Part shown: positions 4,563 to 17,066 of the stretch, piece by piece
Layout: every line of letters starts with the position of its first letter
Numbering within the stretch: position 1 is the stretch's first letter
Origin: Candidatus Methylomirabilota bacterium
GTDB lineage: Bacteria > Methylomirabilota > Methylomirabilia > Methylomirabilales > Methylomirabilaceae
DNA: 25,716 bases
Direction of reading: 5' to 3'
NCBI GenBank assembly: GCA_028869615.1
Contig: JAGWRQ010000005.1
Span: 1 to 25,716 of the forward strand
Position numbers and translations under genes: made by a program
Notes under the pieces: generated by a model
What the model was told of the DNA's origin: nothing
The model's input: only the letters and a program-made list of their open reading frames with translations
Databases searched by the model: none

Positions 4563-5572
4563 GGTGGCGATCGCTTGGCCTGCTCGGCCTGCTGCTGGCA
4601 CTTGTCGTCGTGGCCTACTACGCCCTGGAGAGCAAGGGCACACTATCAGGGGCGGATGCCAGCCGATTATTCCAGGCCGAGGAGAAGGACGTCGAGACTA
4701 TCGCCATCAGGAAAGGCGACGCGCTGATCGCGCTGAAGCGTGAAGGCAACGGGTGGCGGCTGATCGAGCCTGTACAGGCTACGGCCGATAGCTCAGAGGT
4801 CGTCTCGCTGCTCCATGCGCTCCTGGAAGCCAGGGAAGAACGACGCATCGAGGAGGCGCCGAAGAACCTCGCCGACTACGGGCTCGAGCGTCCCGCAGTC
4901 CATCTCAGCGTGACGCTCAAAGACGGAAAGACGTTACCGGCTCTCCTGCTTGGCGATCTGAACCCGAACGGCCGCTCCGTCTATGCCAAACGACCCGATC
5001 GACCCGCGGTCTTCCTGGCGACCGTCATCGTACGACTCCGCGCGGACCGGAAACCGGACGATTTCCGTGACAAGACCCTGCTCGCGCTGGAGCCAAACCA
5101 GGTCACGCAGGTCGAGCTGACCGGTAAGGGAGAACCGATCAGCCTCAGCCATGCCGAAGGAAAGGGATGGGAAATCAACAAGCCGATCAAGGCCAAGGCG
5201 GACGCGGCGGTGATCGGGCAGTTGTTGTGGAAGATTAAGGACGCCCGCGTGACGGCATTTGTCGGCTCCGGCCCCGACGCCAAACGCAGGTACGGCCTGG
5301 AGCGCCCGGACCTGATCGTGGAGTTGAAGGACGCGGGCAGCGTGAAGCGGCTGTTGCTGAAAAAGGCCGCCGACCCACAGGTCGGCCTGTACGCCATAGC
5401 TGAGCCTAGAGGAGATGTGGTATCCCTCGATGCCGGCCTCTTCACCGATCTCTCCAAGTCGCCCCGTGATCTCGCAGATCGATCCGCACCAGAGCGCCGA
5501 CCGGCGACCGGCGACAAGAGCCGCCGATTCTCTCCCACCACACCGACCCCGCCCGCATCGTCCTCATCCTGA
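4559..5572 (+). CDS. DUF4340 domain protein, partner of the GldA/F/G-type ABC exporter
   Basis: The product has 337 residues: one N-terminal membrane helix (LGLLGLLLALVVVAYYAL) and then two similar beta-rich modules. Each module has a 'W.l..P....AD...v..LL' segment (GWRLIEPVQATADSSEVVSLL, then GWEINKPIKAKADAAVIGQLL) followed by a 'YGLERP' turn, the hallmark of DUF4340 proteins. These are commonly encoded directly after GldG-like genes. The ATG overlaps the GldG stop codon (ATGA), so I start here rather than in the open frame reaching back to 4385. The last 35 residues (Arg/Pro/Ser/Thr-rich) do not resemble the usual C-terminus and the gene overlaps the convergent gene by 9 bases, so the tail may be worn or frameshifted. 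Function unknown. Confidence 0.82.
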   Translation: MRWRSLGLLGLLLALVVVAYYALESKGTLSGADASRLFQAEEKDVETIAIRKGDALIALKREGNGWRLIEPVQATADSSEVVSLLHALLEAREERRIEEAPKNLADYGLERPAVHLSVTLKDGKTLPALLLGDLNPNGRSVYAKRPDRPAVFLATVIVRLRADRKPDDFRDKTLLALEPNQVTQVELTGKGEPISLSHAEGKGWEINKPIKAKADAAVIGQLLWKIKDARVTAFVGSGPDAKRRYGLERPDLIVELKDAGSVKRLLLKKAADPQVGLYAIAEPRGDVVSLDAGLFTDLSKSPRDLADRSAPERRPATGDKSRRFSPTTPTPPASSSS

Positions 5573-6340
5573 TCGGGCTTCTGAAGACGTTCGCCCGCCT
5601 TCCGACCGGAAACGCCAATGCAGCCCGAACGAGAGGACGGTATAGTAGATCGGGTACAGCAGAGACCAGGCGACCAATGAAGGCGAGGAGTCGGGAAGCT
5701 GCCATAAGAGAATCAGGAGCGCGGCGGTCCACATGATGCAAAGCCCGATGGTCAGAGAACGGAGGATTCGAGTGCGGCCGGGATAGATGTATTTGATCGG
5801 CACCAGCACCATCACCGCCGCAAAGAGGGTAAAGACCGCGTTCAACCAGAGGGGACTCCTCCCGACGTAATAGTAGAAGGCCAGGACGTTCCAGTATGAA
5901 GGGAAGCCGGTGAAAAAATGATCCGGCGTCTTGGCAGAGACGTGACAGAAACGGTAGGCACTGACCAGGAGCGGGAAGGGCACAATCCAGATCGAGACCG
6001 ACGCCGGCAATAGGTCGGCTTCGTAGATCAACACGATAGGGACGACCACATAATTCAGATAATCAACGATATCATCAAGTTTCGGCCCATCGAATTGGAG
6101 CAGGACCTCCTTGACCCTGGCCAGTCGTGCCAGCGGCCCATCCGCAGCATCGATCACGACGGCCAGCACCATCCCGAAGAACGCCCCACGATAATCGCCC
6201 CTGTGTATGGCGACAAGGCACCAGACTCCGACGACCGCCCCTGAAGCGGTGAACAGATGCACCGCCCACGCCATTACCCGCTGCCACGCGTGCTCTCCCC
6301 TTTTCACGCCGACCGTCCCATCCCTCCTCCGCCACTCCAC
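5564..6340 (-). CDS. pcs: Phosphatidylcholine synthase-like CDP-alcohol phosphatidyltransferase
   Basis: The product is an inner-membrane enzyme of up to 258 residues with about eight helices. Counting from the GTG at 6340, residues 67-93 carry the CDP-alcohol phosphotransferase motif D67-G68-x2-A71-R72-x12-G85-x3-D89-x3-D93. The 12-residue spacing, rather than the usual 8, is characteristic of phosphatidylcholine synthase, which joins CDP-diacylglycerol to choline in one step. The context LDDIVDYLNYVVVP and the later YRFCH and FFTGFPSYWN segments also fit Pcs. The start is uncertain: GTG at 6340 has no clear ribosome-binding site, GTG at 6307 follows a GGAGGAGGG somewhat too far away, and ATG at 6274 would still keep the motif. 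It lies 54 bases after the TPR gene and may be the last gene of the cytochrome operon. A related phosphatidylserine synthase activity cannot be excluded. Confidence 0.75.
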   Translation of the reverse strand: MEWRRRDGTVGVKRGEHAWQRVMAWAVHLFTASGAVVGVWCLVAIHRGDYRGAFFGMVLAVVIDAADGPLARLARVKEVLLQFDGPKLDDIVDYLNYVVVPIVLIYEADLLPASVSIWIVPFPLLVSAYRFCHVSAKTPDHFFTGFPSYWNVLAFYYYVGRSPLWLNAVFTLFAAVMVLVPIKYIYPGRTRILRSLTIGLCIMWTAALLILLWQLPDSSPSLVAWSLLYPIYYTVLSFGLHWRFRSEGGRTSSEARSG

Positions 6341-6394
6341 CAGTGAATGGTGCGCTCTACTGATGGCTTCACTCGCCGCGAATCGGAAGTCGGG

Positions 6395-7009
6395 TTAGCG
6401 TTCTTCTCGCCCGCTTGTCCCGGCGTTTCCTTTCTGAGGACTATGAGGGCGGGCCAGCTCCGCTATCCATCCTTTGACCCGCTTGGCATCGTCTGAGTCC
6501 GGCGGCACGAGAGTGAGAAAACGCTGGAACACCTCAGTGGCACCCTTTGCATCCCCCTTCGCTTTCAAGGCCTGCCCCTTGTCGAACAGGGCGTGAGCGT
6601 ACTGGGGGTTCAGGCTCAGCGCCCGGTCATACAGCTTGATGGCCTCATCCGGACGGTTGCTCTGCATCAGGATAGTTCCCAGATGTGTCAGCGCCTCGAC
6701 CTGGTTCCGATCGGTGAGTAGAATCTGGTGATATTTCTCCCAGGCCGCCTGGAGGTCACCGGCCTCGAGCGAGGCGTGGGCCGCCTTCAAGGCCGAATCG
6801 ATCTCGGAGGGCGAGAGACGGGGGCCAGGGGCGGCGGACGTCGATGTAGTGGGCGATTGTGGCGGCCGGACGAGCGGAACGAAAGCTGAGGCCAGGTACC
6901 CGAGGAGAAAGCCTACGGCCAACGCGCTGCCCAGCATGATGATGAGGCGTATCTTGCCCGTGGAGCGTGGTTCTTCCATGATCTTTTCTGTGTTTACTCT
7001 GTGTGTCAT
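6395..7009 (-). CDS. Membrane-anchored TPR protein
   Basis: The 204-residue product has an N-terminal signal anchor (IIMLGSALAVGFLLGYLASAF, residues 23-43), a Pro/Ser/Thr-rich linker and three tandem tetratricopeptide repeats (about residues 71-104, 105-138 and 139-172). The repeats show the usual pattern, for example AWEKYHQIL, AIKLYDRALSLNPQYAHALFDKG and ATEVFQRFLTLVP. The orientation would put the repeats in the periplasm, where TPR proteins such as NrfG or the C-terminal part of CcmI assist haem attachment. Its place 29 bases after the 13-heme gene makes a cytochrome-assembly role plausible, but that is inference. An AGAGGAGGT site lies 16 bases ahead of the ATG at 7009, rather far; an ATG at codon 11 is an alternative. 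Confidence 0.75.
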   Translation of the reverse strand: MTHRVNTEKIMEEPRSTGKIRLIIMLGSALAVGFLLGYLASAFVPLVRPPQSPTTSTSAAPGPRLSPSEIDSALKAAHASLEAGDLQAAWEKYHQILLTDRNQVEALTHLGTILMQSNRPDEAIKLYDRALSLNPQYAHALFDKGQALKAKGDAKGATEVFQRFLTLVPPDSDDAKRVKGWIAELARPHSPQKGNAGTSGREER

Positions 7010-7038
7010 AGCTCGATCAGTCGTTACCTCCTCTTGCC

Positions 7039-9135
7039 CTAGCCGACCCGCGGTTCTGTGATCTCCTCGTCCGCCGACAATGGGCTTGGCGCGGATTCCA
7101 CTGCGAGCACCTCGTCTAATTCGGCAGCGTGATCCTTGGCCATTTGTTCCCCCGTGACCGTCCCCGTCAGCCAGGCTAAACTCATCGGGTAAATATCGGG
7201 TCGGAAAATGACGTGGTAGAAGTGCCAGACCAGGACAGCGAGCGTTGCAAGCCAGGCCTCGTAATAATGGATGACGGTCGCCAAGTCAATCACCAAAAGG
7301 GGCCAGCGCTTCAGCACAACCGTTTGCAACCACATGATACATCCGGTGCCGGCCATGACAAACGTTCCCCATATGACCGCCCAGTACTCCAGCTTCTCCA
7401 CGTAAGAAAAGTGATGGAAACGGGGCCGGTGTGGTCGCAGACCCAGGTTGAACGTCACCATTTCCCACGCCTCGTTCACATCCCGCCAGCCTGGTTCCAT
7501 CAACCGGAACTGAGTCCGACCACGCTGCGTACCGAAGAGGTACACCAGATGGTACACCGCCGCTCCCATCATGAGAACACCGGCGATCCGATGCAGCCAC
7601 GCTCGGACGGCATACCATCCCTCGATCCAGACCAGCGGCCGCGCCCACCACGACTCAGGAAACTTCAAGGCAAAACCGGTGATCACCAGGATCGTGAAGG
7701 TTGCAAATAGCGTGAAATGCTGAATCCGCTCATTCAGGGTCAAGCGCTCAAAGAGCCGGCGTCCCACCTCGGGGGGCACGCGCGACTGCTCTTCCTCCTG
7801 CCTCTCCGGCAGCCAACGCTCCCGCAGATGCGCCAGGAAGTCGAGCCCATTGTGCAGGCTCATCCCGCCAATGACGACAACGATGAGCACAAGGTAGATC
7901 CGTCTGACCAGGGTCACCCATGGGTGCTCGCCGAACCCGGGGGCTACGTGGATCCTGGTATTGGCCAATTGCATGCCGGCGCCTCGGTGACACTGCCCGC
8001 AGGTTCGCGAGAGATTCATCGGGTTGACGGTGGAACGAGGATCGGAGGATGGCTGGATGTTGTGGGTGCCATGGCAGCTTGCGCAATTGGCCACGACGGG
8101 CGATCCGCCTCTTACCGCCAGGCCGTGGAAGCTCTCGAAGAACGTCCCGGCTCGCCGCGGCGCGAGGCCAAACTCCTCGATGACCCGCGCCGCCTCGTGG
8201 CAGGCCGCGCAGGTCTTAGAGACCGTCATCGGCGCTACCCGCGATCCCGGAGCACGGGTGGCGGTGATTCCGTGCTCACCATGACAGTCAGTACATGTCG
8301 GCGCCGCAAAAATCCCGCGTGAGACGGCTTCCCCATGGACACTGTCCCGAAACTGTCCGGCCTCGTCGCCGTGGCAGTGGCTACAGGTCGTAGCCACATT
8401 CTTCTTGAAAATAGTCGAAGCGGGATCGGCGCCTCGTCGGATCTCGTGGGCGCCATGGCAATCGGTGCAGGTTGCGGCGGCAAGATTGCCCTTCTGCAGG
8501 ATGGCCTGTCCGTGGATGCTCTGCTCAAAGAGCGCTACGACCCGCGGCCTTGCGATCCGCTCTTGAGCGATGACTTTCGGATCGGCATGGCAGCGGGCGC
8601 AGGTTTCGTGGATGTGCGAACGATGGGTAGGCGACGCAGGGTCGCGGCGAGATCGGACGGCGTGGGCGGTATGGCACGTCACGCAGGTGGGCAGGTTCCG
8701 GGTTCGCTCCTCACGGCGACCGGCGTGAATACCGGCGGCCATCTGCGTTGCCTGGCGGCCATGGCACGACGCGCAGATGATATCGGCATCGGCGGCGATC
8801 TTTCGGATTCGGTGACTGCCATGACAGGCGATGCAAGTGGCGCTGTCGCCGCTGCCACCCAGCTTGGCATGAGCGCTCTTCGGAATCTCGTTATGAGGTG
8901 TGAGATGGCATGCGCCGCAACGGACCGGCTGGGGCCTTTCGGTGTGAGGCCCTTCCGGGATATCGCTATGGCACTTGGCGCAGGCAAGCTCTTTGTGCGC
9001 GGATTGAAGGAGATCGTCGGGATCGTTGTGACAGGCCAAGCACTCCTCAGACGTGGAAGGCAACTCCGAGACGGACGCAACAGCATTCGGAACTGTGGTC
9101 AGGAAAAGCCACACAATGAAAAGGCTTCCAACCAC
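7039..9135 (-). CDS. 13-heme c-type cytochrome fused to membrane cytochrome b domain (CbcL-like)
   Basis: The product has 698 residues. A signal peptide (about 1-21, ending AVASVS) leads into a periplasmic domain with thirteen CXXCH haem sites between residues 32 and 383. This is followed by about five membrane helices (roughly 410-433, 472-490, 512-535, 585-608, 622-645) with His residues suited to b haems (H473, H515, H529, H638, H641) and the HFTLFATFTILVITGFAL stretch typical of the FdnI/HydC/cytochrome b561 fold. The architecture parallels Geobacter CbcL (multiheme c plus b domain), an inner-membrane quinol oxidoreductase passing electrons to periplasmic cytochromes. Direction and partner here are inferred. 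GTG at 9135 is the only start that keeps the signal peptide close; a weak GGGTGG lies ahead. The gene is 43 bases downstream of the c7-type gene. Confidence 0.88.
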   Translation of the reverse strand: MVGSLFIVWLFLTTVPNAVASVSELPSTSEECLACHNDPDDLLQSAHKELACAKCHSDIPEGPHTERPQPVRCGACHLTPHNEIPKSAHAKLGGSGDSATCIACHGSHRIRKIAADADIICASCHGRQATQMAAGIHAGRREERTRNLPTCVTCHTAHAVRSRRDPASPTHRSHIHETCARCHADPKVIAQERIARPRVVALFEQSIHGQAILQKGNLAAATCTDCHGAHEIRRGADPASTIFKKNVATTCSHCHGDEAGQFRDSVHGEAVSRGIFAAPTCTDCHGEHGITATRAPGSRVAPMTVSKTCAACHEAARVIEEFGLAPRRAGTFFESFHGLAVRGGSPVVANCASCHGTHNIQPSSDPRSTVNPMNLSRTCGQCHRGAGMQLANTRIHVAPGFGEHPWVTLVRRIYLVLIVVVIGGMSLHNGLDFLAHLRERWLPERQEEEQSRVPPEVGRRLFERLTLNERIQHFTLFATFTILVITGFALKFPESWWARPLVWIEGWYAVRAWLHRIAGVLMMGAAVYHLVYLFGTQRGRTQFRLMEPGWRDVNEAWEMVTFNLGLRPHRPRFHHFSYVEKLEYWAVIWGTFVMAGTGCIMWLQTVVLKRWPLLVIDLATVIHYYEAWLATLAVLVWHFYHVIFRPDIYPMSLAWLTGTVTGEQMAKDHAAELDEVLAVESAPSPLSADEEITEPRVG

Positions 9136-9178
9136 CTTTCGGCCACCCGTCTCAATCCGGTCGCTGTGTCTCGGGTCC

Positions 9179-9574
9179 TTACGAGGGCGGCGCCGTACTG
9201 ATTTTATGGCACTTCATGCAGTTAGTCATCTCCTTCGTGGAGAACGCAACCTTCCCGTTGTGGCATGTACCGCATGCCTTGCCTTCATTGTAGGCTTTCA
9301 TGGTGAGGTCCGGAGAGGTCCCAATCTTGGTCTTGAAAGGTTTATCCTTGCCGTGGCAGTTCAGGCACTTCTGACCCTTTGCCAGATGCGCGTTGTGATC
9401 GAACGTCACCTTTCCGGGGCTCGGGTTCCCCTGCTCATCCCTGGTCTTCTGTTCGAAGGTAAATGGAGCCGGCACCTTGGGCTTAGGCTGCGCGAAGCTT
9501 CGAGATGCTGTAACGCTCACAATCAGGAGGCACGCGAGTGCAAGTGTCGCGCTCCTTCCAATCCTTGATCTCAT
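9179..9574 (-). CDS. Triheme c7-type periplasmic cytochrome
   Basis: This is a small secreted protein of 131 residues with an N-terminal signal peptide, cleavage likely after SFA near residue 28. It holds three CXXCH haem sites: CLNCH at 70-74, CGTCH at 101-105 and CMKCH at 119-123. The GKVTFDHNAHLAKGQKCLNC lead-in, with His residues available as distal ligands, is typical of the c(7)-type triheme domain found in Geobacter-like periplasmic electron carriers. AAAGGAGG sits four bases before the ATG, giving a strong start. It lies between the 9-heme gene and the 13-heme/b fusion, so it could shuttle electrons between the inner-membrane complexes and the outer-membrane conduit. That role is inference. 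Confidence 0.88.
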   Translation of the reverse strand: MRSRIGRSATLALACLLIVSVTASRSFAQPKPKVPAPFTFEQKTRDEQGNPSPGKVTFDHNAHLAKGQKCLNCHGKDKPFKTKIGTSPDLTMKAYNEGKACGTCHNGKVAFSTKEMTNCMKCHKISTAPPS

Positions 9575-9610
9575 ACTTCCTCCTTTCTGCAGGCAGTTTC
9601 TTAGGAAATA

Positions 9611-9687
9611 GCGTTCAGCACTCAGCCATCAGCTTCAGACAAAACAGGGAACGTATCGGAAGAGCTGACCGCTGAAAGCTGACAGCT
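9611..9687. repeat. Imperfect inverted repeat of CTGA/CAGC-type units
   Basis: Between the 9-heme and c7-type genes, a left arm at 9611-9639 (GTTCAGCACTCAGCCATCAG and following bases) faces a right arm at 9662-9687 (GAGCTGACCGCTGAAAGCTG and following bases). The reverse complement of the right arm repeats the same AGC-x3-CAGC periodicity. Short runs of CTGA/CAGC units of this kind are scattered between genes in many bacteria. I see no gene in 9575-9781. Confidence 0.45.
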
Positions 9688-9724
9688 CCCCCCTCCGCTT
9701 TCATTCGTATCTTCGGAGCATGAT

Positions 9725-9782
9725 ACCATACGCTCGTCATTCATGCGAGCGGGCGTTCATAAAGGGTCGCAGACGGTATGGT
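9725..9782 (-). terminator. Nested inverted repeat directly after the 9-heme gene
   Basis: A perfect 7-bp outer inverted repeat (ACCATAC at 9725-9731, GTATGGT at 9776-9782) encloses a 6-bp hairpin (CGCTCG at 9731-9736, CGAGCG at 9746-9751). The outer right arm touches the stop codon of the 9-heme gene. There is no clean T-run, so it may be a processing or mRNA-stabilising structure or a weak terminator separating the Rieske-cytochrome b-9-heme genes from the c7 and 13-heme genes. Confidence 0.4.
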
Positions 9783-11053
9783 CAGCCAGGCCCCCGCCGT
9801 CGATCAACTTCCCTGATCTTGAAAAAGAGGCCGACCAGGACCGCGCCAATGACCAGCATGGAGACCGCCAGCCCCTTGCGACGAAACTGCAACTCCGCCA
9901 GGAGGTCTTGGCCGCTCTCGAGACTCTTCTGCGCTACGATCAACCCGGAGTCGGTGGCGGTCTTGATCTTTTCCACCTGAAGCGAATGAGTTTCCGCTCT
10001 GGCCTTGATCAAAGACTCTTTCGCCGCAATGAGCTCGAACCGAGGCTGGCCAACCTCCATTCCTGCGCGCTCGGCCTTGGTGAGGACTGCCGCCGCCTGG
10101 TCGATCCGGCTCGAAAGCCCCTCAACCATGGTTCGCAACTCGGCGGCCTTCTTCAGGGGCACAGAGTTCGCCTCATGGCAGGTAGCACAAGGGGTGCCTT
10201 CTCCACCGGCCAGCATCGCGTCCGACGGTTTCGTGACATCGTGATTCCCATGGCATGTCACGCATGCCGGCATCCCCAGCTCAGCGAATGCCGGCTTGTG
10301 CGCGCTCTTAGCGAAGAGCTCGACCGTCGCGACATGACAGTGGCTACAGATATTCGCCACCGAATCGATACCGGGAGGGGCAGCGCCGTGACTGCCGTGA
10401 CAGCTACTGCATGTCGGGGAGGCGAGGTCCCCCCTCTTGGTCAACATCTCGTAATGAATGCTCTGCTTGTACTTCTCAAACTGATCGGTGGGGATCTTGT
10501 ACGCCTTCATGTACTCAGCGTCACCGTGGCATCGACCGCAGGTCTCAGCGACCTTGATAGGGTGGGTCCAAGCCATCTGGTCCTTGACGGCACGGATGGC
10601 ATGCACGTCATGGCAACTGATACAGACGGCGACCTTCTGATCTCCCTCGCGAAGCCTTTTGCCATGGGCACTGGTATAGTATTCCTTCACCTGATCGGTC
10701 CGAATGGACGGATTGAACGTCCGCATATAGACCGGATCGCTGTGGCACCTTCCGCAGGATTCAGGGATCGCCTGCCGCTTCGGTTTGCCCACAAACCCCT
10801 TGGCCGGACTGTGGCTCTGCGCCTTGTTGTCGAGCGCCGTAGGGTCGCCGCCGTGACAGTTGTGACAGCTCAGTCCCCGTACCAGGTGATAATCGTCTTT
10901 AATCTTGAAGGCCGGACGGCTCAGGCGCTCCTCTCGTAATGCCTTGTGACAGTCAATGCAGGCATCCTCCGCCGCAGCGAAGGGGACACCACGGATCAGG
11001 GCAGCCGCGGCCAGGAGAAGGCCGCAACACGCGACGCGCAGCATCAGCCTCAC
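9782..11053 (-). CDS. Membrane-anchored 9-heme c-type cytochrome, probable partner of Rieske/cytochrome b
   Basis: Translated from the GTG at 11053 the protein has 423 residues: a signal peptide (LMLRVACCGLLLAAAALIRG and following), nine CXXCH haem sites between about residues 32 and 293, a charged, probably coiled-coil segment (about 300-390) and a C-terminal membrane helix (MLVIGAVLVGLFF) ending in a basic tail. The GTG start has GAGG five bases ahead and lies just after the cytochrome b stop; an ATG at 11089 would overlap cytochrome b by 29 bases and give an odd N-terminus. The position after Rieske and cytochrome b genes, plus a single C-terminal anchor as in cytochrome c1, suggests that it replaces cytochrome c1 as electron exit from the complex. 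That is inference from gene order and topology. Confidence 0.85.
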   Translation of the reverse strand: MRLMLRVACCGLLLAAAALIRGVPFAAAEDACIDCHKALREERLSRPAFKIKDDYHLVRGLSCHNCHGGDPTALDNKAQSHSPAKGFVGKPKRQAIPESCGRCHSDPVYMRTFNPSIRTDQVKEYYTSAHGKRLREGDQKVAVCISCHDVHAIRAVKDQMAWTHPIKVAETCGRCHGDAEYMKAYKIPTDQFEKYKQSIHYEMLTKRGDLASPTCSSCHGSHGAAPPGIDSVANICSHCHVATVELFAKSAHKPAFAELGMPACVTCHGNHDVTKPSDAMLAGGEGTPCATCHEANSVPLKKAAELRTMVEGLSSRIDQAAAVLTKAERAGMEVGQPRFELIAAKESLIKARAETHSLQVEKIKTATDSGLIVAQKSLESGQDLLAELQFRRKGLAVSMLVIGAVLVGLFFKIREVDRRRGPG

Positions 11054-11060
11054 GGCGTCC

Positions 11061-12149
<1,089 letters not shown>

Positions 12150-12154
12150 CTCAT

Positions 12155-12604
12155 TTATCCTTTCATGACGATAATCTGATCTCCCCGGACGTTGAGCTTC
12201 AACGGCTCCAGGGGCCGCGGCGGCGGGCCGCTGATATTCTTCCCATTCAGGTCGTACACGCCATTATGGCAGGCGCACCAGATGTCCTGCCGATCTTCCC
12301 GGTATTGTACCGTACATTGCAGGTGGGTACAGACGGCAGAGAAGGCCCGCAACTCACCCGCCGATGTCTTCACCAAGATGCCCGGAAGACTCCTGAAGCG
12401 GAAGATCCGCCCTGAGTTCGCCTTTAGCTCCGCGAGCTTCCAGGGAAGGGTCACACTGAATGTCGTCGGCTCGGCAAGTTTCGGGGGAATCAGGTATTTG
12501 GCGATCGGGTAAAAGATGGACACAAAGAGCACGCCGAGGGAACTCCCCAGCAGCCAATTCACCGTTCGCCGCCCGTGATCGACCTGTTCATCTTGCTGCG
12601 ACAC
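12155..12604 (-). CDS. Rieske [2Fe-2S] protein of the cytochrome b complex
   Basis: The product has 149 residues. An N-terminal membrane anchor ([20 protein letters not shown]) is followed by a b6f-like KYLIPP hinge segment and a C-terminal Rieske domain with both cluster-binding motifs: CTHLQC and CACHNG, each giving one Cys and one His ligand. The extra Cys of each motif forms the usual disulfide. I start at the GTG at 12604 because AGGAGG lies eight bases ahead; the ATG two codons earlier is only two to three bases from that site. The cytochrome b gene follows after five bases. The protein takes one electron from quinol at the membrane surface and hands it to a c-type cytochrome, here probably the 9-heme protein. 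Confidence 0.93.
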
Positions 12605-12635
12605 AACCATTCCCTCCTTCGGTCTTAAATATCAA

Positions 12636-12672
12636 AAGCCAGCCCGCCAGACAACGCCCGGTAGGCTGGCTT
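12636..12672 (-). terminator. Probable factor-independent terminator after the mtrB-like gene
   Basis: On the minus strand AAGCCAGCC, a 19-base loop and GGCTGGCTT form a perfect 9-bp stem, followed at once by TTGATATTT so that the transcript ends in a U-rich run. It lies 65 bases after the mtrB-like stop codon and 32 bases before the Rieske start. It could end or attenuate the mtrA-mtrB transcript. A second perfect hairpin adjoins it on the upstream side (12671-12693). Confidence 0.55.
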
Positions 12673-12693
12673 GCCTGCTCCGTTCGCAGGCAA
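12671..12693. repeat. Perfect 8-bp hairpin in the mtrB-Rieske gap
   Basis: TTGCCTGC at 12671-12678 and GCAGGCAA at 12686-12693 enclose a 7-base loop. It shares two bases with the terminator-like stem-loop beside it, so both could form in tandem with little loss. The palindrome may be a dispersed GC-rich intergenic repeat or part of a two-hairpin leader in front of the Rieske gene. Confidence 0.5.
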
Positions 12694-12736
12694 CATACTA
12701 GCACATCAGAGAAGCGCCTGAAACAAGGAGGCTCAC

Positions 12737-15157
12737 TCAGAACTGGTAGCGAAGCGTAAATGCTGCAATATGAGCGTCGTAATTCTGGAGAAAACGAGCG
12801 CCCAAGAAGGTATCGGTCGTCGGTGGCAGGGTGGTCAGCCCGGTCGTCCCGATCGTATCGGTCGCCCAGTCCTTTTCTCGAAACTGCTCATATCGATATT
12901 CGCCCTTGAGACTCCAATTTTTAGTCAGGTTGTAACGAAGCGCGGCGATAAGAGTATGGAGCTTCGTGTTGGCTAGGGGATAGGAGACGGCGGTCGCCGT
13001 CGCCCGTTGGGATGCCGGTGAGGGTGAGCCGCCCGGCCCTACCGATTGTCCGCTGGTCGGAACGACCGGGTTAAAGGAGTTGATCGTGGTATCCGCGTCT
13101 GAGAAAGAGTAGTTCAGCCGAAGGGTAAGACGATTGGGAATCAGGCTGATGTCGGCGCCGGCCCCCCAAGTATTCACCGTGTCCGTATTCAGGCTCCGCC
13201 AGTTAAAATCAGCGAAGTCGCAGGCTGCGGTATTGGGGGAGGAGCCTGGCGCGCACCCGGGCGCAAGCGGCGCGGAAGGGGTTCCCAAGTTGACGACCGG
13301 TCTGGAACGGGAGATCTGGTCGTACCGGAACTCCTCCCGCGTATAGTTGACGAACAACGAGAGCCACGAGAAGGGGCTGTAACTGAGGTCGCCGCCGGCG
13401 CTCCAGCCTCTCGATTCCTGCAAGCCAAGGGTGGAGTTATTGAAATTGTCCAGGAGGAGACTGTAGGTCGCCGTAAAGTTCAGTGTGTCGATCGGGGTGA
13501 TCGTCGACAGGATCTCTACCCTGTCCCTGTTCCGGTCAGCCTCATCGAACTTCCGAAGCAGAATCGACTGACCCTGGGGATCCGGCACAAAAGGCTCCCC
13601 CTCGATGCCAACGGTGACGTGCGCGTCCTGAGCTTGTGGTACGTACTTATCGATACGCCGCCAGCTTCGACGGTATGCGGCACGAAACAAAAGCCAGTCG
13701 ATCGGTGTATAATCCAGGCTAGTCTTCAAGAAGTGCTCATCGCTGACCGGTACCTCCCGGTGTTTGGGATCGCGTTCCCAGCGCTCCCACTCGTACCCCA
13801 ACTTGACATGGAGGTCGCTGAGAAGAGGATAGCCCGCGTCCAGATGGGCATTGTGCTTTGTGTAGGAGAAAGGCGCGTTGACCTCTGGACCGAGCGTGAG
13901 CGACGTATCCCGAACCGTAGTCGCTGGGAACACGATCTCAGGCGTTCGGTTATTAAAGTCGTAGAAGCGGTAGCCGCTGGACAGCGTCAGCGGTAACGCC
14001 GTAAGCGGACGGCTCGTCGCGTTGAACGTTACGAGGGTCGTCCTGACGTCTCCATCCAGACTGTTTCTTGGGAGCGCCAACTGCGGATCGGCTGCCAAAG
14101 CCGGATTGATGGTGTGCGGGACGAACGTCTCATCCTGAAGCCGCCACCCATAGGAGACTTTGCCGGTGATCCGAGTCCGGAGGGGGAGAGAGAGGCCGCC
14201 TGCCAGAAATACATTATGAGCCTGATTGCTCGGATCCATGGTCGTGCGACCGAGAGCGGAAACGGTCGGGCTACTGGTCGCCGAGAGCGGGTTGTCGAAC
14301 ATGATATTATCGATGCCCTGGTCGAAGATCGAGGCGGCGTAGCCGAGACCAACGTTCCACCCTGGCCTCGCATACTCGGTCTTGACCTCAACCTGGTGAG
14401 TCCGATCAAAGCGGGGGGCCGGAAGCTCGACCACATTGCCGCCAGGACTACCGAAGCCCGCGCCAAAGGGGATCGTTCCGTCCTTTTCCGTATAGGTATA
14501 ACGGACCTTCATATCCAGCGATTCGCTCAAGGCATACTTCAAGCCGAATCCGCCATTCCTCGTCAAAAAATTGAGATTAACCGGTACGGCATTGGCCAGG
14601 AAGCCCGCCAATACAGAGGCCTTTGTGGCCGCAGGGGCGGCCTGGACCGTCGATGCAACCCCAGGCGGCAGGGTCAGACGCGCGGCGCTGTCTTCGATTG
14701 TTGTCGTGAACAGGGTCCGTCCCGTCGTGCTCAGCAAATGCGGGATCTGATCCCAGAAGATCTCCAACTCATAGTCGCCGTACGTTCCCGCCCGGAAGAG
14801 ATAGCGCTGGTCTTTCTTGAGAGGCTTGACGGCGGAGAACTCGATGTACCGCCTCTGATCTTTCGTCTCAAGCGAGACGCGAGCATGGTCAAGGAAGGGG
14901 TTCTCATCGAGAATCCGGTACTCTTGAAATTTGGCCGAGCTCCGATTGCCGTCGACCTGCCGGTAGCCGCCCTCGACATCCACTCCCGTTACGTTGAGGC
15001 TGAACGGCAGCCGGTCATTAAGCCAGCTCGCCCATGAAGGCAGGGTCTCCTGTGGCGGACCCTGTTCAGCGTAACCTGACGCGACGGTCGCCAGCAATAG
15101 AGCGACAGCAAGCGGCAGCGCTTGACCAATCCGTCTTTTCCCAAGCAATGCGCCCAT
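12737..15157 (-). CDS. MtrB/PioB-family outer-membrane beta-barrel of a porin-cytochrome conduit
   Basis: This 806-residue protein has a signal peptide (ALPLAVALLLATVASGYAE). The rest consists of alternating amphipathic strands ending in RYQF, the C-terminal aromatic signal of outer-membrane barrels. The segment SSAKFQEYRILDENPFLDHA, followed by DQRRYIEF and the GDYELEIFWDQIPH stretch, fits the 'decaheme-associated' MtrB/PioB family (PF11854). The N-terminal CXXC pair of Shewanella MtrB is not seen. In this family the barrel wraps a decaheme cytochrome and insulates it while electrons cross the outer membrane. GGAGGAGGT five bases before the ATG gives a strong start. The gene follows the decaheme cytochrome gene by 34 bases, the expected pairing. 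Transport of anything other than electrons is unlikely given that pairing. Confidence 0.9.
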   Translation of the reverse strand: MGALLGKRRIGQALPLAVALLLATVASGYAEQGPPQETLPSWASWLNDRLPFSLNVTGVDVEGGYRQVDGNRSSAKFQEYRILDENPFLDHARVSLETKDQRRYIEFSAVKPLKKDQRYLFRAGTYGDYELEIFWDQIPHLLSTTGRTLFTTTIEDSAARLTLPPGVASTVQAAPAATKASVLAGFLANAVPVNLNFLTRNGGFGLKYALSESLDMKVRYTYTEKDGTIPFGAGFGSPGGNVVELPAPRFDRTHQVEVKTEYARPGWNVGLGYAASIFDQGIDNIMFDNPLSATSSPTVSALGRTTMDPSNQAHNVFLAGGLSLPLRTRITGKVSYGWRLQDETFVPHTINPALAADPQLALPRNSLDGDVRTTLVTFNATSRPLTALPLTLSSGYRFYDFNNRTPEIVFPATTVRDTSLTLGPEVNAPFSYTKHNAHLDAGYPLLSDLHVKLGYEWERWERDPKHREVPVSDEHFLKTSLDYTPIDWLLFRAAYRRSWRRIDKYVPQAQDAHVTVGIEGEPFVPDPQGQSILLRKFDEADRNRDRVEILSTITPIDTLNFTATYSLLLDNFNNSTLGLQESRGWSAGGDLSYSPFSWLSLFVNYTREEFRYDQISRSRPVVNLGTPSAPLAPGCAPGSSPNTAACDFADFNWRSLNTDTVNTWGAGADISLIPNRLTLRLNYSFSDADTTINSFNPVVPTSGQSVGPGGSPSPASQRATATAVSYPLANTKLHTLIAALRYNLTKNWSLKGEYRYEQFREKDWATDTIGTTGLTTLPPTTDTFLGARFLQNYDAHIAAFTLRYQF

Positions 15158-15191
15158 GGCCCACCTCCTCCGCTTGATCTCGATCGGCGCC

Positions 15192-16193
15192 TCAGTTCAG
15201 GAAGGCAAACCCTGAGGGATGGTTTGACCCATGGATCTTCTGGTGGCAGTTGATGCAGCCCCGGTTGATGACGAACCTGCTTCCGGTCCTTGGATCGTAT
15301 GGACTCGTCGGGTGCCGTGTCTCAATGTGGCATTGCTGACAGAGGCGGGGTACCCTGCTCTTCAGGAGCCTTTCATTGGTGGAACCGTGCGGCTCGTGGC
15401 AGTTCGTACAGCTCTCGACGACGGGCGCATGCTCCCACAGGAACGGCCCCCGTTTCTCGGCATGGCACTTGTAGCAGTTCTCATTGATAGAGTCTTCGCG
15501 GAGCATCGCCTGCGTCGCAGTCCCATGAGGGTTGTGGCAGTCGCTGCAACTCATCTTTCCCTCGCGCAGCGGCATGTGGGAACTGCGCTGGAGCTGGGCC
15601 CGTCGGGTCTGGTGACACTGTGAACAGACCTCGATCGCGGTCGGCTTTGCCAGGTTGTATCGGTCGGATATCGACTCCATCACCTTATGGCAGGATACGC
15701 ACGCCACTCCCCGTGTTTCATGGGTGCTTCCTTGCCAGAAGGTGTGTTCGCCCTTTTCGTGGCAGCCGTTCACACAGGTGGCATTCTGTGCTTCGACCGG
15801 CTCGGCCCCCTTCTTGAAGGTCATCAACGTCTCTAACGCGCCGCCCTCCGCAGCCACGTGCGGGCCCCCTGGACCATGACACGACTCGCAGTCTCGCTGT
15901 TCTTGGGGAGTGCGCGGGTTCACAGACATGATCCGCCCCATCCTCGTCTTGTGGAAGCGCTGGGCCGACTCCTCATGGCACGTCAGACAGGACTCCCGGC
16001 CCACGTACTTGGCGTTCGGGGAGGGACCGGTCCACTGAGGCCGAGGCGCATTGGTGCTTGCAGCGGATGCCGCTTGGGCATGAAGAGTTGCAGAGTCGGA
16101 TGGCGGCAGACTGAATCGACTGCAGGCCCATCCAATAAGGAGAGCAACAACCAACAGGGGCAACAGGGCGACGACAGCGTCACGTTTCTTCAT
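15192..16193 (-). CDS. Decaheme c-type cytochrome, MtrA/PioA/DmsE family
   Basis: The product has 333 residues. An N-terminal hydrophobic segment (residues 7-22) is followed by GWACS and an Ala/Ser-rich linker. Ten haem sites follow at 69, 102, 140, 165, 190, 216, 240, 262, 285 and 313. Nine are CXXCH; the third, CVNGCH at 140-145, is the rarer CXXXCH. The C-terminal KIHGSNHPSGFAFLN is characteristic of MtrA/PioA/DmsE proteins, which sit inside an MtrB/PioB barrel and carry electrons through the outer membrane. The partner barrel is the next gene. The Cys at 24 could be lipidated, but Trp two positions before it departs from the usual lipobox. AAGGG lies ahead of the ATG. A molybdoenzyme partner (as for DmsE) is not present nearby. 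Confidence 0.92.
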   Translation of the reverse strand: MKKRDAVVALLPLLVVALLIGWACSRFSLPPSDSATLHAQAASAASTNAPRPQWTGPSPNAKYVGRESCLTCHEESAQRFHKTRMGRIMSVNPRTPQEQRDCESCHGPGGPHVAAEGGALETLMTFKKGAEPVEAQNATCVNGCHEKGEHTFWQGSTHETRGVACVSCHKVMESISDRYNLAKPTAIEVCSQCHQTRRAQLQRSSHMPLREGKMSCSDCHNPHGTATQAMLREDSINENCYKCHAEKRGPFLWEHAPVVESCTNCHEPHGSTNERLLKSRVPRLCQQCHIETRHPTSPYDPRTGSRFVINRGCINCHQKIHGSNHPSGFAFLN

Positions 16194-16257
16194 CTTTGAG
16201 CCCTTTCAGGTATGGATCGCGAACGGAAACGCGACTCTGAATTCGAGTGGCTAACGG

Positions 16258-16286
16258 ACTATATGATTGCTTGCATGGAATGTCAA
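16258..16286 (-). promoter_or_regulatory. Strong sigma70-type promoter for the mtrA-mtrB-like genes
   Basis: On the minus strand a perfect -35 box TTGACA (16286-16281) is followed after exactly 17 bases by TATAGT (16263-16258), five of six matches to TATAAT. Transcription should start near 16251, leaving a leader of about 58 bases before the decaheme start codon. No operator-like palindrome overlaps the boxes. The 16194-16404 gap contains no gene that I can support. Confidence 0.7.
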
Positions 16287-16404: not shown

Positions 16405-16806
16405 TCAGGAGACCTCAAAATACTCTACGATGATCTGACTGACCTTCTGATAATGTGCGTCCGCACTTAGGAGCCGACACCCGTACTGCATGGCACTGGC
16501 CGCGATCCAGATGTCGTTAGTGGGTATAGGGGTACCTGCCTTCCAGAGCGCATTGAGTATCAGCGCGTACCTCTCGGCGGTCTCCTCATTGATATCCACG
16601 ATACTCACCCGCGGTGATGCCAGGAACTGATGCAGCTCCAATTGGTTCTTTTTTCTGTGCTTTCCTCGGACAAAACCCGCGAGCAGTTCGCCCACAATGA
16701 CGGCATTAAGATAGATCTCGTCGGCTTGCTGGAGAGCATGCGTGAGTTCCGGATGGCCTCGCATGAACGCCGAGTAGGCCGATGTATCCACCATCGCCCG
16801 CATCAT
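16405..16806 (-). CDS. vapC: PIN-domain toxin, VapC family
   Basis: This is a PIN-fold ribonuclease of 133 residues from the ATG at 16806. Its four acidic active-site residues are visible: Asp in MVDTSAY at the N-terminus, Glu in VGELLAGF, Asp in TNDIWIAA and Asp in SADAHY. VapC toxins cut tRNA or rRNA and are held inactive by the cognate antitoxin encoded upstream. I choose the ATG at 16806 because it overlaps the antitoxin stop codon in the usual ATGA arrangement; ATGs at 16815 and 16803 are also in frame and no clear ribosome-binding site decides between them. All catalytic residues are intact, so the toxin is probably active. Confidence 0.88.
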   Translation of the reverse strand: MMRAMVDTSAYSAFMRGHPELTHALQQADEIYLNAVIVGELLAGFVRGKHRKKNQLELHQFLASPRVSIVDINEETAERYALILNALWKAGTPIPTNDIWIAASAMQYGCRLLSADAHYQKVSQIIVEYFEVS

Positions 16807-17066
16807 CGCCGCCATAGTTCCGGATCAATTGCACGCTGCCTGGTCAGGGCTCTGTTGAAGGCGGCAGCCTCCTCACGCGTCCACGTCCCGGCCAGCGCAT
16901 CCAGATCGTGGTATAGGGTCATCTCACCTTTCTTTCCTCGAACCCCTACGCTGTTCTCCAACAGACCGATGACGACCCTGTTGATGCTCGCGTGCTGCTT
17001 GTCGGCCTTCTGGCGGATAATCCGGGTAAGCTCGGGTGGAAGATTTCGCAGTGTGATCGCCTTCAT
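16803..17066 (-). CDS. vapB: Ribbon-helix-helix antitoxin, VapB/FitA-like
   Basis: The product has 87 residues. The N-terminal part (MKAITLRNLPPELTRIIRQK then ASINRVVIGLLE) fits a ribbon-helix-helix DNA-binding domain: a short strand, a helix with PPEL, then a second helix. The C-terminal half contains an acidic/aromatic stretch and ends in AIDPELWRR, likely the toxin-wrapping tail. It should neutralise the downstream PIN toxin and repress its own promoter. AGGAGG six bases before the ATG is a strong ribosome-binding site. Its stop overlaps the toxin start by four bases. Confidence 0.85.
   Translation of the reverse strand: MKAITLRNLPPELTRIIRQKADKQHASINRVVIGLLENSVGVRGKKGEMTLYHDLDALAGTWTREEAAAFNRALTRQRAIDPELWRR

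Follow-up and report, generated by a model that had tools for sequence, protein, structure and literature searches.

The window analysed here is a stretch of 25,716 nucleotides, contig C92 of the Candidatus Methylomirabilota metagenome-assembled genome (MAG) G000 (2.06 Mb in 278 contigs, completeness 99.79, contamination 7.85). Seven genes for electron-transfer proteins lie side by side on its minus strand, at the places given to them by an original prediction made from the letters of the DNA, as borne out by open reading frames (ORFs) and family models. In order of reading these encode a decahaem c-type cytochrome of the DmsE/MtrA family (MtrA, 15192..16193), an outer-membrane barrel of 806 amino acids of the MtrB/PioB family (MtrB, 12737..15157), a Rieske [2Fe-2S] protein with an N-terminal membrane anchor (12155..12610), a cytochrome b with its b6 part and subunit-IV part in one chain (11061..12149), a nonahaem cytochrome c with an N-terminal signal or anchor and a C-terminal membrane helix (9h, 9782..11089), a trihaem c7-type cytochrome that is probably periplasmic (3h, 9179..9574; PF14522 and TIGR04257 above cut-off) and a 13-haem cytochrome with a b561-type membrane domain in the layout of CbcL/MtrH/MtoC (13hb, 7039..9135). 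By motif count MtrA has 10 haem sites (9 CXXCH and 1 CXXXCH), 9h has 9, 3h has 3 and 13hb has 13, which agrees with the predicted total of 35. In its DNA form CXXCH occurs 37 times in the window, compared with a mean of 1.18 and a maximum of 5 over 100 shuffles; 34 of the 37 are in-frame motifs of the four multihaem genes, and CXXXCH brings these to 35. The named relatives of the 9h protein are from Methylomirabilis, and the best match to 13hb (99%) comes from a MAG labelled candidate division NC10 bacterium. The genome also encodes PmoA and two MqnA/D-family proteins (PF02621), the latter presumably of the futalosine route to menaquinone, and we therefore take the organism to be a methanotroph with menaquinone.

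The genes are tightly spaced, with intergenic gaps from mtrA through mtrB, Rieske, cytb, 9h and 3h to 13hb of 34, 126, 5, -29, 207 and 43 bp. Approximately 65 bp before mtrA there is a sigma-70-like promoter, TTGACA-17-TATAGT, with 11/12 consensus bases (16258..16286, minus strand). We aligned the upstream region of the window with eight Methylomirabilis sequences, of which those of G007 and G014 are identical: TTGACA is kept in 9/9 and TATAGT in 8/9, and DNA farther upstream is unconserved. The nine sequences also share, with few substitutions, a block between promoter and mtrA, the leader element CAGAGTCGCGTTTCC (16225..16239, minus strand), which has one exact copy in the genome and two more with 1 mismatch. 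Promoter patterns across the region are in mild excess (8, compared with 4.0 in shuffles, standard deviation 2.0), so that the case for this promoter lies in its conservation and not in the match. Taken together, tight spacing, one conserved promoter and an order kept in relatives support the view that these genes look like one unit. The interval proposed for it, 5564..16193, does hold the seven genes; it also takes in genes for a TPR protein and a phosphatidyltransferase that had not been named, and it omits the promoter.

Both parts of an MtrAB/PioAB-type conduit are present, a DmsE/MtrA decahaem and, 34 bp from mtrA, an MtrB/PioB barrel. MtrA scores 272 bits with TIGR03508 (cut-off 192) and, among sequences of solved structures, aligns nearly full length to 6r2q_A (residues 10-329, E=1.7e-73). 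MtrB reaches 387 bits with PF11854 and 312 bits, above cut-off, with TIGR03509, and it matches 6r2q_B of the solved Mtr complex at E=1e-17. By family, MtrA and MtrB would be an outer-membrane conduit pair, with assembly and trans-membrane transfer predicted.

On the quinol side, the Rieske protein (PF00355, 39.5 bits, with a hydrophobic segment as anchor) has the ligand boxes CTHLQC and CACHNGVY, and both boxes are found in 76/76 proteins checked, that of the window included. Box 2 reads HNG in 74/76 and HAG in 2/76; the serine of the textbook HGS is absent, a change that would lower the Rieske potential and fit menaquinone. Two more Rieske-domain stretches occur in the same genome (G000:C171:10532-10786 and G000:C185:1823-2056), hence the island's Rieske protein is not the sole one. 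The cytochrome b (PF00033, PF00032) has four haem histidines, H89-x13-H103 and H190-x14-H205, and PEWY at 280, and its best relatives among solved structures are cytochromes b6. With both ligand boxes, the four histidines and a PEWY-type Qo motif, the pair belongs to the bc1/b6f superfamily. The monohaem c1 or f of a canonical complex is not there as third subunit: the third gene is that of the nonahaem protein, which overlaps cytb by 29 bp, and no cytochrome c1 or f was named in a Pfam scan of the 20 window proteins. The hydrophobic segment of 9h (407-425) lies within a long, mostly confident AlphaFold2 helix (372-431), and the protein could be a tail-anchored subunit replacing cytochrome c1/f. 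Over the haem domain the same model has low confidence (mean predicted local distance difference test, pLDDT, 63.7), and it was not used for structure searches. Solved-structure sequences gave no match to the single 9h protein or to 13hb, a 9h profile gave one marginal match (6i5b, E=0.0011), and the plasmid collection gave no match to 9h. In 13hb, 13 CXXCH motifs precede PF01292 (467-645), which is the N-terminal multihaem and C-terminal b-type membrane layout of the CbcL/MtrH/MtoC family. Five hydrophobic segments follow its haem region, compared with the six transmembrane helices of that family; in an alignment of 15 proteins, CbcL itself not among them, 5 histidines are invariant in 15/15 and 3 more in 14/15.

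Absence of the gene order in relatives, which the original prediction had named as telling against it, was not what we saw: the order is kept in congeners, and six Acidobacteriota loci share it as far as the fifth gene. MtrB has a match in 9/14 congeneric genomes, and in all 9 one match is on the contig carrying the Rieske/b-9h genes. MtrB is directly followed by Rieske in 8/14 (G002, on a 5.7 kb contig that ends inside mtrB, and G003, G005, G007, G008, G009, G013 and G014). Identity to the window is 81-89% for MtrA (8 loci) and 71-76% for MtrB (9 loci). In G004, MtrB and Rieske are separated by ~7 kb encoding a pentahaem protein, a molybdopterin protein with a twin-arginine (TAT) signal, NrfD and a protein with four cytochrome-c domains, whilst G001 has, upstream of Rieske where other congeners have MtrAB, a protein with 8 haems that resembles HAO by eye only. 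The contigs of G010 and G012 start ~200 bp before or inside cytb, and the 9h search was without match in G006 and G011. Sets resembling Qrc or alternative complex III (ACIII), comprising a multihaem protein, a molybdopterin protein, NrfD and cytochrome c, occur near MtrAB or Rieske/b-9h at L062:5490-11779 (G004), L057, L111, L158 and other loci. Moreover, G008 has two tandem MtrA-MtrB pairs (L060:3959-10943), the second near that of the window (81/71% identity) and the other at 50/31%.

Beyond the genus, an alignment scan with 9h gave 211 relatives, the best 80 of which were kept as loci; these come from Methylomirabilota, Rokuibacteriota, Acidobacteriota, KSB1, Gemmatimonadota, Zixibacteria, Calditrichota and others. 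By tblastn, cytochrome b is present in 77/80 and Rieske in 73/80 (ORF calling found Rieske in 65/80, an undercount from overlap filtering). Since both are at nearly all 9h loci, the trio is a module. A DmsE-type decahaem of 9-11 motifs is found in 9/80 loci, and a porin in the same 9/80, no more than 9 kb from 9h: one in Methylomirabilis (L088), one in Rokuibacteriota (L106) and seven in Acidobacteriota (L105, L111, L112, L122, L131, L133 and L137). L088 equals the G007 contig in length (49,378) and is not independent of the congeners, and six of the seven Acidobacteriota pairs helped to build the decahaem and porin profiles, so that the count of 9/80 is not independent of these. In 6/7 Acidobacteriota loci the decahaem-porin pair is upstream in the window's order; in L133 it is downstream, and in L106 it is on the opposite strand. 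MtrB of the Rokuibacteriota locus L130, at a contig start just past 9 kb, was left uncounted, and MtrA-like matches in L098 and L117, in ORFs outside 9-11 motifs or outside 9 kb, were dropped from the census. A first pass with MtrB in 4/80 loci had suggested that the arrangement is nearly private to the phylum; this was abandoned when large haem-free ORFs beside decahaems, a profile search and fold prediction raised the number to 9/80. Among six divergent porins, five had no Pfam match and one a sub-threshold MtrB match; NCBIfam, scanned with four, gave two sub-threshold GSU2204 matches and nothing for the other two. One is predicted to fold like MtrB (mean pLDDT 67.6, 6-row alignment), and as neither Pfam nor NCBIfam gave an above-threshold match, it is on this one model that their MtrB-like nature depends.

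MtrB and 9h also tend to occur together. Among 60 genomes of the class, 18 have both, 2 MtrB only, 8 9h only and 32 neither. Outside the genus the numbers are 8, 2, 5 and 30 (one-sided P=2e-4, uncorrected for relatedness), and 8, 2, 2 and 23 for the 35 of these genomes that are at least 90% complete. Three loci labelled Bacillota, Acidobacteria and Deltaproteobacteria (L118, L096 and L101) have a 9h that groups with those of Acidobacteriota, Methylomirabilota and Rokuibacteriota, and are misbinned contigs or transfers. In L103, L110, L159 and L121, from several phyla, an 8-haem protein of ~250-300 amino acids and a protein with a TAT-like or iron-sulphur (FeS)-protein-like start are beside the Rieske/b-9h trio, joined in L103, L159 and L121 by an NrfD-like membrane protein; labels here other than haem counts are by eye or from weak profile scores.

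Several parts of this arrangement have known counterparts; most of the sources compared below were accessible in part, and what we say of them extends to those parts. Shewanella MtrCAB (6r2q) has the decahaem MtrA and the MtrB barrel in common with the window. However, the window locus is without MtrC, and its quinol side consists of Rieske/b-nonahaem and a CbcL-type protein, not CymA. Proteins of the CbcL/MtrH/MtoC family combine an N-terminal multihaem part (3-23 motifs) with a C-terminal b-type membrane domain, and MtrH/MtoC genes are clustered with mtrAB/mtoAB in 7 species, as CymA genes adjoin mtrAB in some (PMC6295460). 13hb has the same two-domain layout and is additionally beside a Rieske/b-nonahaem complex; the words NC10 and Rieske are absent from the main text of that paper. 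The Geobacter ext cluster ExtHIJKLMNOPQS likewise unites a Rieske protein (ExtO), cytochrome b (ExtP), multihaem cytochromes and an outer-membrane porin (ExtI) (PMC5877670, PMC2825233). It differs in that ExtI is a 45 kDa porin, its cytochromes have 5, 12, 10 and 4 haems, it is linked to selenite and tellurite, and the accessible text describes no MtrA/MtrB pair. In light of MtrH/MtoC, CymA and ext, quinol-side genes beside a conduit are less unusual than the original prediction had it. The Rieske/b genes of the Caldithrix Nap locus, without a nearby monohaem cytochrome c, are proposed to reduce multihaem cytochromes, the proposed partner being nitrate/nitrite reduction and not an outer-membrane conduit (PMC5317091); a locus titled Caldithrix abyssi (L152) is among our 9h relatives. 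A Methylobacter became enriched on an anode that depended on methane, and a four-gene cluster of it encodes MtrA and MtrB together with two monohaem cytochromes. This is a methanotroph with a DmsE/MtrA decahaem and an MtrB/PioB barrel like those of the window, for which methane-dependent current is reported, but no Rieske/b or CbcL-type gene is described in the text available (PMC13322032). In the main text of a survey of MtrCAB clusters the terms NC10, Rokubacteria, Methylomirabil- and Rieske do not appear (PMC8805035). From Lake Baikal, mtrA is mentioned in some Methylomirabilota and Nitrospirota MAGs, the accessible passages leaving gene context undescribed (PMC10386581), and work on iodate in Methylomirabilota concerns the periplasmic IdrABP1P2 route and not the present operon (PMC10989891). 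In the open-licence literature, as far as its text was available, we recognised no description of Rieske/b-nonahaem in one operon with MtrAB, nor of the operon in Methylomirabilis. Judged by these sources, quinol-side genes beside mtrAB and a Rieske/b-porin-multihaem cluster are already known, and the union of Rieske/b-nonahaem with MtrAB in one operon appears to be new.

We interpret the locus as a menaquinol-oxidising electron-export operon leading from the quinone pool to the outside via 35 haems, a reading to which we assign a probability of roughly 0.6. Cytochrome b and Rieske would oxidise menaquinol and hand electrons through the Rieske centre to a tail-anchored 9h in place of cytochrome c1/f; energy would be conserved at this step if a Q-cycle runs. 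13hb, being of the CbcL/MtrH/MtoC type, would take up electrons from quinol in parallel, as a second entry point. Transport over the periplasm to MtrA inside the MtrB barrel would fall to the trihaem c7 protein and the 9h ectodomain, and from the barrel the electrons would pass beyond the outer membrane. The acceptor there is not encoded at the locus; candidates are a humic or metal oxide, another cell as partner, or a surface protein from an unlinked gene. The original prediction had drawn one path from quinone pool to exterior. Spacing, promoter and order bear out one unit; a single serial path is less well founded, as the quinone-linked modules may be alternative entries. Export is favoured because methane gives internal reducing power, PmoA marking the internal electron source, and because a sister operon in Acidobacteriota (L111) encodes an MtrC-like cytochrome (PF22113, 181 bits) immediately upstream of the decahaem gene. 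The Methylobacter with its MtrA-MtrB cluster, enriched on an anode that depended on methane, points the same way (PMC13322032). The two MqnA/D-family proteins support menaquinone as the quinone. That the Rieske/b complex is of the proton-translocating Q-cycle type, with the nonahaem wire as its cytochrome c subunit and co-transcribed with the conduit, such that export conserves energy, is more tentative and in our view falls slightly short of an even chance.

A number of observations weigh against this interpretation. As predicted, no surface cytochrome is found: MtrC/OmcA is missing at the locus and TIGR03507 is above cut-off in 0/36 genomes, G000 included, a search that had no positive control among the named genomes. 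Weak sub-cut-off matches occur in 13/36, none of them in G000. The PEWY motif is more typical of higher-potential chains. At 71/80 9h loci there is no conduit pair within 9 kb, many of their contigs being short; among the 41 loci flanked by 6 kb on either side, the pair is present in 8 and absent from 33. With most 9h loci lacking a conduit, the Rieske/b-9h module often serves other partners. Lastly, the conduit label is scattered on a 9h tree (91 proteins, a quick method with SH-aLRT only), with 10 changes and no shuffle comparison. This number is probably inflated, because early-ending contigs were scored as lacking a conduit. On a plain reading of the tree, the pairing of conduit and 9h appears to have been gained or lost several times.

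An extra 18-haem gene (~731 amino acids, 17 or 18 motifs, NapC/NirT-type anchor) follows 13hb in G005 (L069:13007-15205), G001, G004, G007, G010, G013 and G014, the copies in G001 and G004 being truncated where the contig or locus stops. It is missing from this place in the window, where 13hb and the TPR gene are 29 bp apart, and in G008, G009 and G012, and a search without positive control did not find it in the G000 genome. We considered it as the missing MtrC and rejected this, since its N-terminus is NapC/NirT (PF03264, 37.6 bits, cut-off 24.1) and reads as an inner-side membrane anchor. Against this rejection, it scores 52.8 bits with PF22113, a model of the MtrC/MtrF domain, and so exceeds the cut-off of 30; that model is unspecific, however, because MtrA of the window passes too (34.7 bits). 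We read the gene as a further candidate quinone module.

Should the module serve other partners here as well, Rieske/b-9h might mainly feed periplasmic N-oxide reductases (Nap, NirS or HAO-like octahaem proteins), with MtrAB a minor or separate branch sharing the promoter. The HAO-like protein at MtrAB's place in G001 would fit this, as would the octahaem, FeS and NrfD-like set near several 9h loci and the Caldithrix Nap locus, where Rieske/b is proposed to feed NapM/eHao (PMC5317091). We nevertheless consider it unlikely, as the operon starts with MtrAB, MtrB and Rieske are immediate neighbours in 8/14 congeners, the pairing recurs in Acidobacteriota and none of the 20 window proteins was named an N-oxide reductase in the Pfam scan.

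Alternatively, the flow could be reversed. A conduit of the PioAB/MtoAB kind would take electrons from Fe(II) or some other donor outside the cell and deliver them to the quinone pool via 13hb or a reversed Rieske/b, and such a role can draw on MtrAB homologues without MtrC in the Fe(II) oxidisers Gallionella and Sideroxydans (PMC8805035, accessible text) and on MtoC-type CbcL homologues in Fe(II) oxidisers (PMC6295460). A methanotroph, however, is already supplied with a strong donor inside the cell. Driving electrons uphill from Fe(II) to menaquinone is energetically expensive, and the MtrC-like cytochrome in the L111 operon is the arrangement of known reducers; inward flow thus strikes us as improbable. 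Less probable still, indeed very unlikely, is a DmsEFAB-like system, in which electrons from the conduit would go to one particular enzyme outside the cell that reduces a soluble acceptor, and not to solids. In its favour, the window decahaem is of the DmsE family, and the DNA that parts MtrB from Rieske in G004 has a gene for a TAT-signal molybdopterin protein along with those for the pentahaem protein, NrfD and cytochrome c. But the molybdenum and FeS subunits of DmsAB are not there, with no molybdopterin or DmsB gene in the Pfam scan of the 20 window proteins, and the G004 set with its NrfD looks like a Qrc/ACIII-type complex and not a DmsAB pair. The G004 molybdopterin protein is under every enzyme-family cut-off shown, its best scores being 379 of 1600 for ArrA and 331 of 440 for QrcB.

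If the Q-cycle version of the export reading is true, Rieske/b-nonahaem would join CymA, ImcH and CbcL as a separate class of quinol entry, one that recurs in Methylomirabilota and Acidobacteriota. Nitrite-dependent methanotrophs would then have an extracellular electron outlet. Methylomirabilis is known for nitrite-dependent methane oxidation. A conserved outward route under a single promoter would imply that it may also oxidise methane with solids, humics or partner cells as electron acceptors, a point of relevance to methane sinks in nitrite-poor settings. This operon also makes testable the idea of a Rieske/cytochrome b complex as an energy-conserving inner-membrane entry for extracellular electron transfer, and its recurrence in Acidobacteriota offers independent test organisms.

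Two further minus-strand genes follow 13hb. The first encodes a membrane-anchored TPR protein (6395..7009; TPR families), which is near 13hb in relatives as well and is probably accessory. The second, last of the run, encodes a phosphatidylcholine-synthase-like CDP-alcohol phosphatidyltransferase (5564..6340; PF01066 23.7 bits, cut-off 22; NF045886 216 bits, under the cut-off of 440) and is probably unrelated in function to the electron-transfer genes. Rfam gave no match in the window at gathering score. Just upstream of the promoter is a PIN-domain VapC-like gene (16405-16815), which is near mtrA also in G003 and G005 (88-90% identity).

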